Shown: positions 13,397 through 17,828 of the stretch, in pieces
How positions within the stretch are numbered: position 1 is the first letter of the stretch
How the letters are laid out: each line of letters starts with the position of its first letter
Source of the DNA: Raineyella sp. LH-20
Lineage (GTDB): Bacteria > Actinomycetota > Actinomycetes > Propionibacteriales > Propionibacteriaceae
DNA length: 64,000 nt
Direction of reading: 5' to 3'
NCBI RefSeq assembly: GCF_033110965.1
Contig: NZ_CP137003.1
Coordinates: forward strand, 3,224,001-3,288,000
The notes under the pieces: generated by a model
Database searches by the model: none
What the model was told of the DNA's origin: nothing
The model's input: only the letters and a program-made list of their open reading frames with translations
Made by a program: the position numbers and the translations under genes

Positions 13397-13430
13397 TGAA
13401 CACTGTTCAAGACGACCTGAACAGTGTTCA
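13397..13430. promoter_or_regulatory. twin BioQ-like operators
   Basis: Two perfect 13-bp palindromes, TGAACACTGTTCA (13397-13409) and TGAACAGTGTTCA (13418-13430), are spaced 21 bp start to start, two helical turns apart. The pattern TGAAC-N3-GTTCA resembles sites known for BioQ, the TetR-family biotin regulator of corynebacteria and mycobacteria. They sit 44 nt before bioA and about 117 nt before pheS. Assignment to BioQ is by similarity and position. Confidence 0.8.
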
Positions 13431-13446
13431 ATCACGGTGTTACGGT
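13418..13446 (+). promoter_or_regulatory. bioA promoter overlapping operator 2
   Basis: A -35 TGAACA (13418-13423) and a -10 TACGGT (13441-13446) are separated by 17 bp. The -35 is the first half of the second operator, so a bound repressor would exclude RNA polymerase. Confidence 0.55.
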
Positions 13447-13473
13447 GACGCCGTCCTACGTCCGAGGAGCCCG

Positions 13474-14847
13474 ATGTCCCTGTCGCCGACCACCGCCACC
13501 GCAGTCCGTCCCAGCACCTGTCCGCCGCCACCTGCCGACGACCTGATCCGGCGCGACCGGGCCCGGCTCTGGCATCCGTACGCCTCCACCACCGCCCCCG
13601 GACCGCTGCAGGCGGTCACGGATGCCGAAGGCGTCCGTCTCACGCTGACGGACGAGGCGGGCGTCTCCCGCCGTGTCATCGACGGCATGAGTTCCTGGTG
13701 GTGCATGATCCACGGCTACCGCCATCCGGTGCTCGACGCGGCGGTGCACGAGCAGGCCGCGCGGTTCACCCACGTGATGTTCGGCGGCCTCACCCATGCG
13801 CCGGCGGTGCAGCTGGCCGAGTCGCTCGCGGACCTGGCACCCGGCGACCTCGACCGGGTGTTCCTCGCCGACTCCGGGTCGGTGACGGTGGAAGTGGCCC
13901 TCAAGATGGCCCGGCAGTACCAGATCAGCCGCACGCAGGCGGTGGGCGGCCGACTCACCCGCACCCGGTTCGCCGCCCTGGAGGGCGGCTACCACGGCGA
14001 CACCCTGGGGGCGATGAGCGTGTGCGACCCGGTGACCGGCATGCATGCCGCATTCGCGGACTCCCTGCCCCGAGAGCTCTTCCTCCCCCGCCCGCCCCGC
14101 CTCGGCGCGGCGCCCGAGGCCGTGGCGGTCTGGGCCGACCGGGTGCGGACCGTGCTGCACGACCACCGGGACGTCCTGGCCGGTGTGATCTGCGAACCGG
14201 TCCTGCAGGGCGCCGGCGGCATGTGGTCGTACGATCCGGAGGCCTTGCGGGTGCTCCGCGAGGTCACCCACGCGTACGACCTGGTCCTCGTCGTCGACGA
14301 GATCGCCACCGGCTTCGGGCGCACCGGCCCGCTCTTCGCCTCCGAAGGGGCCGGGATCGTGCCCGACGTGCTGTGCGTGGGCAAGGCGATGACCGGCGGC
14401 TACCTGACCCAGGCGGCCGTGCTGACCAGCGACCGATTCGCCCGGGCGGTCAGCGCCGGTCCACAACGCGCACTGATGCACGGCCCGACCTTCATGGCCA
14501 ACCCGCTGGCCAGCGCGGTGGCTCTGGCCAGTCTCGAGCTGATCCGGGCGGGCGCCTGGCGGGCCCAGGTGCCCCGGATCGAGCAGCGCCTGGCGGCGGG
14601 CCTCGCGCACCTCACCGACTCCCCGATCGTCACCGACGTCCGGGTCCTGGGCGCCACCGCCGCCGTCGAGCTCGACCATCCGGTCGACCCGTGGATCGCC
14701 GCCCGGGCCGCCCTCGACGCCGGGGTCTGGCTGCGGCCCTTCGGCCGCCTCGTCTACACCATGCCGCCCTACATCGTCACCGACGACGACATCGCCACCA
14801 TCACGGCCGCCATCGCCGCGGTCGTCCACGCCGAGGAGGCACGATGA
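13474..14847 (+). CDS. bioA: adenosylmethionine-8-amino-7-oxononanoate aminotransferase
   Basis: Converts KAPA to DAPA, the third step of biotin synthesis, with S-adenosylmethionine as usual amino donor. It is a PLP enzyme of 457 residues. Seen are RLWHPYAST, GMSSWWCMIHGYRHP (typical of BioA), GGYHGDTLGAMSVCDP, the cofactor aspartate in VVDEIATGFGRTG, and the PLP lysine in VGKAMTGGYLTQA (Lys304). ATG 13474 has GAGGAG 4 nt upstream; the frame opens earlier but that would cover the operators. No bioF, bioB or bioY lies nearby. The stop overlaps bioD as ATGA. Confidence 0.96.
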   Translation: MSLSPTTATAVRPSTCPPPPADDLIRRDRARLWHPYASTTAPGPLQAVTDAEGVRLTLTDEAGVSRRVIDGMSSWWCMIHGYRHPVLDAAVHEQAARFTHVMFGGLTHAPAVQLAESLADLAPGDLDRVFLADSGSVTVEVALKMARQYQISRTQAVGGRLTRTRFAALEGGYHGDTLGAMSVCDPVTGMHAAFADSLPRELFLPRPPRLGAAPEAVAVWADRVRTVLHDHRDVLAGVICEPVLQGAGGMWSYDPEALRVLREVTHAYDLVLVVDEIATGFGRTGPLFASEGAGIVPDVLCVGKAMTGGYLTQAAVLTSDRFARAVSAGPQRALMHGPTFMANPLASAVALASLELIRAGAWRAQVPRIEQRLAAGLAHLTDSPIVTDVRVLGATAAVELDHPVDPWIAARAALDAGVWLRPFGRLVYTMPPYIVTDDDIATITAAIAAVVHAEEAR

Positions 14848-15536
14848 TCATCCTCGAACCGGGCGTCACCATCGTCACCGGGACGGGAACCGATGTCGGC
14901 AAGACCATCGTCACCGCGGCCCTGGCGGCGACGCTGGAGGCTGCCGGCCGGCATCCGGTCCTGGTCAAACCCGCCCAGACGGGTCTGGTCGCGGGCGCGC
15001 CGGGTGACGTCCACGAGGCTGCCCGACTCGCCGGCATCCCTGCCGATCGCCGCCACGAGTTCGTACGCCTCCCGGAGCCGCTCGCTCCCACCACTGCGGC
15101 CCGCCGCGCCGGCATCACCCCACCGACCGTCGCGGAGCATGCCACCGCCATCGCCGCACTGGCCGAGCAGCACCCGACCGTCCTGGTCGAGGGCGCCGGT
15201 GGGCTGCGGGTAGGACTCGACGCCGCGGGCGACGGCCTGGTCGAGCTCGCCGCCGCCCTCGGCGCACGGGGGCACCGGCCACGCTTCGTGGTCGTCGCCC
15301 GGCCCGACCTCGGCACCCTCAACGTCGTACGCCTCACCTGTGACGCCATCCGCGACAACGGCGGCACCGTCGCCGGCGTGGTGATCGGCTCCTGGCCCGA
15401 CGAACCCGACCTCGCGATGACCTGCAACCGTGCTGAGCTCGCGGCGGCGGCCGGCGCTCCGCTGCTGGCGGTCCTACCCGCCGGCCTCGGGGCCTGCACG
15501 CGCGTCGACTTCCTCGAAAGGGTCTCCCGTGCTTGA
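14844..15536 (+). CDS. bioD: dethiobiotin synthetase
   Basis: ATP-dependent ring closure of DAPA to dethiobiotin; 230 residues. The P-loop is GTGTDVGKT (13-21), followed by VLVKPAQTGL (substrate lysine region) and VEGAGGLRVGL. The start ATG overlaps the bioA stop, and the C-terminal VDFLERVSRA overlaps the GTG start of the downstream permease, so all three genes form one translationally coupled operon. Confidence 0.95.
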   Translation: MIILEPGVTIVTGTGTDVGKTIVTAALAATLEAAGRHPVLVKPAQTGLVAGAPGDVHEAARLAGIPADRRHEFVRLPEPLAPTTAARRAGITPPTVAEHATAIAALAEQHPTVLVEGAGGLRVGLDAAGDGLVELAAALGARGHRPRFVVVARPDLGTLNVVRLTCDAIRDNGGTVAGVVIGSWPDEPDLAMTCNRAELAAAAGAPLLAVLPAGLGACTRVDFLERVSRA

Positions 15537-16899
15537 CACCACCCCCGGTCCCGTGTCGTCCGAGCAGGACGACGCCGCACTCCTGCGTCTCGGATACCGG
15601 CCCTCACTGGGGCGCAGCCTCGGCATCGGCGCCATCCTCACCTACGGCCTGTTGTTCTTCGTCCCGATGGCCCCGGTCGCCGTGTTCGGCTACGTCGCGA
15701 CGATGTCGCACGGTGCGCCGGTCCTGGTCTACCTGGTGGCCGCCCTGGTGATGGGCCTGTCGGCGATCAGCTTCCGCGAGATGGCCCGGCGATTCCCGGT
15801 CGCCGGGTCAGTCTACGGCTACACCCGGCTGTCCACCGGTCGCCACCTCGGCTTCGTGGCGGGCTGGCTGGTGCTGCTGGACTACCTGCTGATGCCGGCC
15901 ACCCTGGTCGTACTCGCCGCGGTGGCACTCGAGAAGGTGCTGCCCGGCGTCCCGGTGTGGGCCATCGTGGTGGGCTTCATCCTGGTCTCGATGGGGCTCA
16001 ACCTCGCCGGCATCACCGTCACGACGCGTGCCGGCGTGGTGCTCCTCGCCGTCCAGTTGGTGGTCCTCCTCGTCTTCGGGGCGTACGTGGTGCGGGCGCT
16101 GGCCGCCGGGCACGCCGAGCCGGCCCTCGCCGCCGTCTGGCACCCCGGTGTCGACGTCGGCGCGGTCCTCGGGGCCGTCTCGATGGCAGCCCTGAGCTAT
16201 CTGGGCTTCGACGCGGTGAACACGCTCAACGAGGAGGCCCGCGGCGGCGGCCGCACGGTCGGGCTGGCCACCGTCATCCTGCTGGTCACCATCACCGTGC
16301 TGTTCTGTGCGGAGGTGTGGGCGGCGGCCCTGGTCACGCCAGTCGCCGACCTGGCGGAGACCGACGTGGCCCGTGCCTTCTACCTGGCGGTGGAATCCGT
16401 GGCACCCGGCTGGTTCAGCACGGTGTTCACCCTGACCAGCGCGGTGCTGGCGATCTTCTCCTGCCTGGTGGTGGCCCATGCATCGACCGCCCGGCTGCTC
16501 TTCGCCATGGCGCGGGACGGGGTGCTGCCCTCGGCCCTGGCCCGCACCGACCGGCGCGGAGGGCCGTACGTCGCTGTGCTGGTGGTGTCGGCGGTCGCAC
16601 TGGGCCTCGGGCTGGCCCTCGCCGGCCGGTCCGCGCTGGCGACCTCCCTGGTCACCTTCGGCGCCCTGGGGTCCTACGTCCTGCTGCACGTCTCGGTGAT
16701 CGTCCGATGCTGGTGTCAGGAGCGGAGCGGCCGCTGGCTCACCCATCTCGCGGTGCCCCTGCTCGGCGCCGCCGCACTGCTGGCGGTGCTGTCACGGACC
16801 GCTCCGTTGACCCGTACGGTCGGCCTGCTCTGGCTGGCCGCGGGCGGGATCGGCTACGCACTGTCACTACTGCTCCGCTCGAAGGCTGCTCGTGGCTGA
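15529..16899 (+). CDS. APC-family permease in the biotin operon
   Basis: Inner-membrane amino acid/polyamine-type transporter, 456 residues with about 12 hydrophobic segments. APC features are visible: PMAPVAVFGYV in TM1, FREMARRFPVAGSVYGYTR after TM2 and YLGFDAVNTLNEEARGG in the TM6-loop region. GTG 15529 overlaps the bioD stop by 8 nt and has GAAAGGG upstream; the ATG at 15430 lies inside bioD. The context points to a biotin-precursor substrate. KAPA and DAPA are amino-acid-like, and yeast Bio5, which carries them, also belongs to the wider APC group. A SAM or lysine transporter feeding BioA is an alternative. The substrate is inference. Confidence 0.85.
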   Translation: MLDTTPGPVSSEQDDAALLRLGYRPSLGRSLGIGAILTYGLLFFVPMAPVAVFGYVATMSHGAPVLVYLVAALVMGLSAISFREMARRFPVAGSVYGYTRLSTGRHLGFVAGWLVLLDYLLMPATLVVLAAVALEKVLPGVPVWAIVVGFILVSMGLNLAGITVTTRAGVVLLAVQLVVLLVFGAYVVRALAAGHAEPALAAVWHPGVDVGAVLGAVSMAALSYLGFDAVNTLNEEARGGGRTVGLATVILLVTITVLFCAEVWAAALVTPVADLAETDVARAFYLAVESVAPGWFSTVFTLTSAVLAIFSCLVVAHASTARLLFAMARDGVLPSALARTDRRGGPYVAVLVVSAVALGLGLALAGRSALATSLVTFGALGSYVLLHVSVIVRCWCQERSGRWLTHLAVPLLGAAALLAVLSRTAPLTRTVGLLWLAAGGIGYALSLLLRSKAARG

Positions 16900-17027: not shown

Positions 17028-17828
17028 ATGGGTCAGGACGACCAGCCGACGCAGGCCTTCGGTGAGCCCGGTCGCTCCCCCGGATCGCCCACCGGCGGCG
17101 GCCCGACGCGCCGGAGCGGCGACGAACAGCAGACGCACGTGTTCGGCGGCTCCGACCAGGCCACCCGCGCCTTCCCCGGTCCGGCCGCACCGAGTGGGAC
17201 CGGCCCGGCCCGAGCGTACGACGCAGGCCAGGGCGGACCGTCGTACGGCGCCGGGGAGACACCCACCGCTCAGTACGGCGCCGATGCCACCCGGGCCGCT
17301 TCCGCCGCGGACGAAGCCGACACGGGTCGGCTGCCGAGCTACCACGAGGGTGTCGACGACCAGCCGTACCGGGAGGTGCGGCACAGCTTCTACGACGCGG
17401 ACTACGTGGCCCGACAGCAGGCCCAGGCCTACAACGCCCAGCCGTACGGTTCGCCGTCCTCCATCCCCCAGCCGGGTCAGCAGCCTCCGGGGGAACCACC
17501 GGTCGCCCCGCCGGCCCCCGAGGACGAGCGGCGGGGCCGGGGTCGGGCGCGGCTGATGCTGGCGCTGGGCATCGTCATCGGTCTGGTGGTGATGGGCATC
17601 GCGGCAGCCGTCCGGGACGCCACCCGCACTCCGGAGCCGGTCCCCACCGTGACGGCCACGGCCACCGTCACCGCGACCAGCACGGTCACGGTGACCCGCA
17701 GCCCGGTGATCAGCGTGCCGACCCGGTTGCCGAGCGTCTCCGCGCCGGTCCAGCTGCCGAGCACCTTCCCGAGCTTCCAGTTCCCACGGATCCCCGGTCT
17801 CAACGGCGGCGACAACGGCAACGGCTGA
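17028..17828 (+). CDS. membrane-anchored protein with disordered Thr-rich N-terminus
   Basis: 266 residues, no recognised family. Residues 1-170 are Gly/Pro/Gln/Tyr-rich and probably disordered, with repeated T-x-x-F words (TQAF, THVF, TRAF). A single membrane segment follows at about 177-195 (LMLALGIVIGLVVMGIAAAV). The outside part is Thr/Val-rich (PTVTATATVTATSTVTVT) and then Pro/Ser-rich. AGGAGG 5 nt before ATG supports the start. Such N-termini resemble Ser/Thr-kinase substrates that dock FHA domains, but that is speculation. Confidence 0.75.
   Translation: MGQDDQPTQAFGEPGRSPGSPTGGGPTRRSGDEQQTHVFGGSDQATRAFPGPAAPSGTGPARAYDAGQGGPSYGAGETPTAQYGADATRAASAADEADTGRLPSYHEGVDDQPYREVRHSFYDADYVARQQAQAYNAQPYGSPSSIPQPGQQPPGEPPVAPPAPEDERRGRGRARLMLALGIVIGLVVMGIAAAVRDATRTPEPVPTVTATATVTATSTVTVTRSPVISVPTRLPSVSAPVQLPSTFPSFQFPRIPGLNGGDNGNG

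Follow-up and report, generated by a model that had tools for sequence, protein, structure and literature searches.

We analyzed a 64,000-nucleotide stretch of DNA from Raineyella sp. LH-20 (G000:C1:3224001-3288000; "the window" below), which comes from a single-contig genome of 3.63 Mb. The window carries a compact operon in which the biotin synthesis genes bioA and bioD are followed by a gene encoding a permease of the APC superfamily (Table 1). The link of this permease to biotin metabolism is strong, and we examined whether it is a candidate importer of the biotin precursors 8-amino-7-oxononanoate (KAPA) and 7,8-diaminononanoate (DAPA).

The bioA-bioD-permease operon and its BioQ-type boxes

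The operon is preceded by two exact palindromes whose starts are 21 bp apart, as the initial annotation had described, and the pair sits between a minus-strand gene, read by eye as pheS, and bioA. With at most one mismatch allowed, the window contains two box matches versus 0.38 expected, and 5 of 100 shuffled sequences reach that number. The -35-like hexamer inside box 2 (13418-13423) matches TTGACA at 4/6 positions and is followed 17 nt later by a -10-like TACGGT (13441-13446; 3/6). Of the earlier claim that one box overlaps the -35 element of bioA, the overlap with the hexamer stands, but both hexamers are weak and a bioA promoter overlapping box 2 is only plausible. The gene junctions were described correctly: bioA and bioD share ATGA (4 nt, 14844-14847), bioD and the third gene share GTGCTTGA (8 nt, 15529-15536), and this third gene does encode an APC-family permease. 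The bioD product clears its profile cut-off only narrowly. The operon, the boxes and the gene linkage can be regarded as established from the sequence.

Table 1. Coordinates of the operon and its boxes (positions within the window)
Feature	Position	Strand	Details
BioQ-type box 1	13397..13409	.	TGAACACTGTTCA; exact TGAAC-N3-GTTCA
BioQ-type box 2	13418..13430	.	TGAACAGTGTTCA; exact TGAAC-N3-GTTCA; overlaps -35-like TGAACA
bioA, 7,8-diaminopelargonate aminotransferase, 457 aa	13474..14847	+	TIGR00508, 504.4 bits (cut-off 405)
bioD, dethiobiotin synthase, 230 aa	14844..15536	+	TIGR00347, 86 bits (cut-off 83.3)
APC permease, 456 aa, GTG start; candidate KAPA/DAPA importer	15529..16899	+	AA_permease_2 (PF13520), 106 bits

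Across the whole genome, the perfect box is found in six places and its reversed control in none (31 versus 10 with one mismatch allowed). Five of the six perfect boxes are biotin-linked: two precede bioA-bioD-permease, one lies between bioB and a divergent TetR gene (185 aa), one is ahead of bioY-(thiolase-like)-bioM-bioN, and one is ahead of acyl-CoA ligase and thiolase genes. BioY was identified via PF02632, and bioM and bioN via matches to energy-coupling factor (ECF) ATPase and, weakly, ECF-T profiles together with gene position. The best solved chains for the TetR protein are 5yek, 5xs9 and 5yej (E about 1e-38; next, 3e-22), which the structure listing labels simply as TetR family regulators and which we take to be M. 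smegmatis BioQ. Perfect boxes number 65 across 15 genomes of the family, versus 11 for the reversed control. Among the 57 boxes whose context was inspected (eight were left out), 51 are beside bioA, bioB/bioQ, bioY or ligase/thiolase genes and six are not biotin-linked. BioQ sites of the TGAAC-N3-GTTCA type were predicted earlier for actinobacteria, and bioQ adjoins bioB in Propionibacterium, among others (PMC3398298). These observations agree with the initial annotation, which had called the palindromes BioQ-like operators and had suggested looking for a bioQ gene in the genome and for the same boxes in relatives. The boxes are part of a BioQ-type regulon, whose repressor would be the predicted BioQ.

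The sixth perfect box (G000:C1:716867), which is surrounded by genes for a short-chain dehydrogenase, an acyl-CoA dehydrogenase and a Rieske protein, was not counted as biotin-related. The sequence TGAACTTTGTTCA and near matches to it, at G000:C1:716796-716879 and 712725 among short-chain dehydrogenase/Rieske oxygenase genes, are perhaps the operator of another regulator.

The acyl-CoA ligase and thiolase genes under a perfect box (L013:5668-7862; G000:C1:3082667-3084861) resemble YhfT-YhfS of Bacillus and Staphylococcus; the names are tentative and follow matches to PRK07638 and PRK06690, both below cut-off. The same pair is present in genomes G188, G196 and G274, and in G203 it lies inside a bioY-yhfT-yhfS-bioM-bioN operon; all five genomes with the pair, the host (G000) included, are without recognizable BioF. 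The YhfS-like thiolase keeps the nucleophilic Cys and has Ala in place of the second catalytic Cys in 5/5 genomes. The yhfS and yhfT genes have been placed under BirA control (PMC11089781). The thiolase-like protein encoded between bioY and bioM (L012:6357-7355) is present in four genomes of the genus; in 4/4, Arg and Ser replace the two catalytic Cys residues.

Linkage of the permease to bioA and bioD in relatives

Homologues of the permease at E ≤ 1e-60 occur in 27 of 293 genomes of the order. In the 30 loci fetched, bioD and bioA are directly upstream in six, and neither is within about 1.5 kb in 24. The six bio-linked loci belong to the host and to five genomes (G023, G062, G065, G071 and G149) of a genus, g3, that we infer to be Cutibacterium, and the linkage that the initial annotation had proposed to look for in relatives was thereby found in a second genus. 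In one Cutibacterium locus (L082), both junctions, bioA/bioD and bioD/permease, are 4-nt overlaps. A scan of named genomes yielded six loci, with bio linkage in C. avidum, C. namnetense and C. modestum and in an uncultured Propionibacteriaceae metagenome-assembled genome (MAG; L132), in which the permease (61% in the best segment) follows bioD on a contig that begins inside bioD. A Rhodococcus ruber homologue (42%) has no bio linkage; a class-III aminotransferase 28% like BioA is encoded ~3 kb away. A partial match in Chitinophagaceae (25%) was not used further. A class-wide search at a threshold of E ≤ 1e-84 returned 3 of 394: the host's own and two others (46%), whose short loci contain neither bioA nor bioD.

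Ten genomes of the family among the 293 carry bioD. The permease directly follows bioD in six of them (five intact, one broken) and was not found after bioD in the remaining four (G048, G147, G184 and G203). In the genome with the broken copy (G149, presumably C. modestum; L116:5958-7109), the permease is in several pieces and bioA and bioD are still open. Three sister species in the host's genus have no match to bioD or the permease (bioA was not searched for genome-wide), but their bioB/bioQ, bioY-MN and ligase/thiolase genes all have boxes. Two of these species have only about 0.7 kb between pheS and the gene at 17028 in the window, versus a 3.6-kb block in the host; in the third, the gene at 17028 was not found in the short locus. 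The bioAD-permease block is therefore present or absent at this site as a unit.

This distribution bears on the possibility that the permease supplies not a biotin vitamer but the amino donor of BioA (S-adenosylmethionine [SAM], methionine or lysine). Coupling to bioA would fit such a role, as would the fact that APC carriers usually import amino acids. However, the open bioA and bioD in genomes with a broken or missing permease suggest that BioA is independent of it, which makes supply of an amino donor less likely and favors a function in optional uptake. Additionally, the solved chains nearest to the host BioA are BioA enzymes, which use SAM, and cells make SAM themselves. We regard the amino-donor explanation as very unlikely.

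Biotin synthesis in the host and its relatives

In addition to bioA and bioD, the host genome encodes bioB (375 bits). The check for KAPA synthesis covered BioF and BioW (BioC and BioH, which act before BioF, were not searched for). A profile search for BioW returned no match in the single-contig genome. The sole BioF-like match (356 bits, below cut-off) falls in a 1060-aa protein, of which it forms the C-terminal domain; this protein also has an acyltransferase domain and is encoded beside a ketosynthase. Because the curated BioF cut-off is passed by none of the 293 order genomes, despite BioF-like genes directly beside bioD, it is uninformative here, and we used instead a tree of 27 BioF/Kbl-type proteins, among them the two E. 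coli enzymes, four BioF-like proteins whose genes adjoin bioD, and other Kbl proteins. The only sequences with which the host domain clusters (100/100) come from the same protein in two sister genomes that have no bioD; the joining of the domain to Kbl is weakly supported (90/74), and long branches were flagged by the tree program. Given this separate group and its occurrence without bioD, the 1060-aa protein was rejected as BioF, and the profiles and tree together recovered no protein that groups with known BioF in the genome. The ketosynthase and the acyltransferase/BioF-like (alpha-oxoamine synthase) protein (L017:9351-14077; G000:C1:2257350-2262076) form a small secondary-metabolite-like cluster.

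As far as the profiles and the tree tell, the host has bioA, bioD and bioB without KAPA synthesis, in line with the earlier description of a cell with bioA and bioD but no bioF, and is apparently able to finish, not to start, biotin synthesis. With no recognizable BioF or BioW, salvage of KAPA or DAPA makes sense. Bacteria of this "BioA, BioD, BioB" pathway type, represented by 68 gut genomes having bioA, bioD and bioB without bioF, have been proposed to salvage KAPA, DAPA or dethiobiotin; the available part of that paper names only BioY and YigM, if broadly specific, as a route in for vitamers (PMC6593275).

Relatives differ in this part of the pathway. In the Cutibacterium genome G062, the second BioF-like protein (L121:6241-8247) is a 668-aa BioW-BioF fusion, with matches to BioF (345 bits, residues 293-655) and to the BioW-type family PRK01322 (155 bits, residues 26-262) that are both below cut-offs. 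Five further Cutibacterium proteins (L122-L126; open frames of 654-750 aa) group with it (100/100); the BioW part was profile-tested in G062, and the others were assigned by tree and open frame. In G147, bioW (over cut-off) and bioF are separate genes. In G184, a box precedes a bioA-bioF-cytochrome P450-bioD operon (L091:6388-10693); the P450, all of whose profile matches are below cut-off, could be a BioI-like enzyme that makes the pimeloyl chain.

These pathways help to judge two further roles for the permease. Export of surplus KAPA or DAPA would accord with the suggestion that secondary vitamin carriers may run in reverse (PMC6593275), and uptake of pimelate would accord with the BioW domain of Cutibacterium, which needs pimelate. 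However, export makes little sense without BioF or BioW and under derepression by biotin shortage, and pimelate is useless without BioW and BioF; we give this pair of roles little credence. Import of dethiobiotin or biotin, duplicating BioY, would fit the boxes that co-regulate the permease with the pathway. Against it, G188, G196 and G274 have bioB and BioY-MN with no bioD and no permease match, so these presumed dethiobiotin users manage without the permease. Furthermore, biotin and dethiobiotin have no free amine, which would be unusual for the cargo of an APC carrier. This role also appears improbable.

Permease family and candidate cargo

The profile match and an APC-type fold, predicted with moderate confidence, place the permease in the AA_permease_2 family of the APC superfamily. 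The structure model was built from 5 sequences (predicted local distance difference test score, 67.7; predicted template modelling score, 0.69). The PDB entry that matches the permease best, by sequence and by fold (TM-score 0.70), is 6f34, a homologue of cationic amino acid transporters from a bacterium. When four E. coli carriers were compared with the permease, PuuP came out closest (30.9% identity, E 7e-52, 446 columns), followed by PlaP (27.4%, E 4e-44, 431 columns), with GabP and AdiC far behind; PuuP and PlaP, both putrescine:H+ symporters, are also closer than any solved chain. The intact bio-linked permeases (four from Cutibacterium, the MAG and the host) form one clade (100/100), which is separated from homologues without bio linkage by a long branch (1.24 changes per column); the tree program flagged long branches and an unusual letter make-up of the host protein. 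In transmembrane segment 1, the permease has GLLFFVPMAPVAVFG and PuuP GLAYLTPMTVFDTFG, and AdiC has GSGVF there. The GSG motif of AdiC holds an alpha-carboxylate. Therefore, the segment without this motif, of the type also present in PuuP and PlaP, makes reasonable a cargo that has no alpha-amino-acid head and whose amine is far from its carboxylate, such as KAPA or DAPA. DAPA is, like putrescine, a diamine.

TIGR00907, presumably the family of yeast Bio5, is not among the 15 families that match the permease at E ≤ 0.001, and PuuP and PlaP match it below cut-off. The comparison with yeast Bio5 in the initial annotation is thus not supported at the level of family. The permease falls outside the PuuP-PlaP pair in the tree and has bioA and bioD as neighbors, not puu genes. 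Judged by these tests, it is neither a member of the Bio5 family nor a PuuP orthologue.

It could still be that a general, PuuP-like polyamine or amine carrier was recruited to the biotin operon and has no biotin cargo, as its similarity to the putrescine carriers would suggest. The operon position, the BioQ boxes and the separate, long-branched clade speak against such a carrier, which we consider unlikely, if slightly less so than the other alternatives.

Combining the BioQ-type regulon, the lack of recognizable BioF and BioW, and the bioAD linkage, we propose that the permease, which very likely has a function in biotin metabolism, probably imports KAPA/DAPA and derives from a PuuP-like carrier. 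The earlier idea of a KAPA importer is thus retained, with the cargo as the best interpretation rather than a result.

Several observations weigh against this proposal. The nearest characterized carriers among those tested move putrescine, and a closer match to a characterized polyamine carrier had been named at the outset as evidence against a KAPA importer. Permeases for branched-chain amino acids and for ethanolamine are among the NCBIfam families matched, all of them below cut-off. BioY-MN, named in the initial annotation as part of what would speak against a KAPA importer, is present in the same regulon; it might carry vitamers itself, as suggested in PMC6593275. It is possible that an unrecognized synthase, or the acyltransferase/BioF-like protein, makes KAPA in the host. 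Lastly, the bio-linked permease is neither limited to nor universal in genomes without BioF. The Cutibacterium genomes with the permease, which have BioW-BioF, should, judging by their genes, be able to make KAPA from pimelate and thus not lack KAPA synthesis. G203, with bioA, bioD, bioB and only Kbl (617 bits, over cut-off), has no permease. A rule that the permease occurs only where BioF is missing consequently does not hold.

We hypothesize that, at low biotin, the BioQ-like TetR repressor would leave both boxes and the operon would be transcribed. The permease, as an ion-coupled APC carrier related to diamine importers of the PuuP/PlaP type, would take up KAPA and/or DAPA released by neighbors, and BioA, BioD and BioB would then complete biotin. 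For relatives able to make KAPA from pimelate, such as Cutibacterium with BioW-BioF, salvage through this carrier would be optional, consistent with the permease being broken or missing in some of them.

The S. cerevisiae biotin gene cluster, reportedly the subject of work by Phalip in 1999, offers a comparison. In yeast, KAPA is imported by Bio5, encoded in the biotin gene cluster, and C. albicans has BIO2-BIO5 in clusters (PMC5039597, PMC7267198). In both yeast and the host, an aminotransferase, a dethiobiotin synthetase and an APC-superfamily permease are kept together, whereas the bacterial operon has BioQ-type boxes and a permease outside TIGR00907; the likeness is probably convergent, one of role and arrangement. 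C. glutamicum is reported to lack BioF, to grow on aminopelargonic acid derivatives, and to have predicted BioQ boxes and, numbered next to bioA, a permease gene, cg2884, whose mRNA is raised under biotin limitation (PMC3398298). However, the annotation of cg2884 as a putative dipeptide/tripeptide permease places it in a different class of transporters. Literature searches about biotin genes of C. acnes and about cg2884 brought up nothing on the permease. BioYMN shares the regulon with the host permease but is encoded at a separate locus and consists of an S-component and an ECF module rather than a secondary carrier.

The full proposal is that a diamine carrier gave rise to a bacterial importer dedicated to KAPA/DAPA, which became locked through translational overlap into a BioQ-controlled bioA-bioD operon as an independent counterpart of the yeast BIO3-BIO4-BIO5 cluster; in our view, this has an even chance of being correct. 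We found no characterized bacterial KAPA importer in the literature searched, outside of which most subscription papers fall, and the permease offers a testable candidate for a bacterial importer of a biotin precursor. If the proposal holds, the permease would fill the transporter gap in bacteria that complete biotin synthesis without starting it, and its lock to bioAD would provide a direct genetic handle on vitamer cross-feeding, Cutibacterium included.

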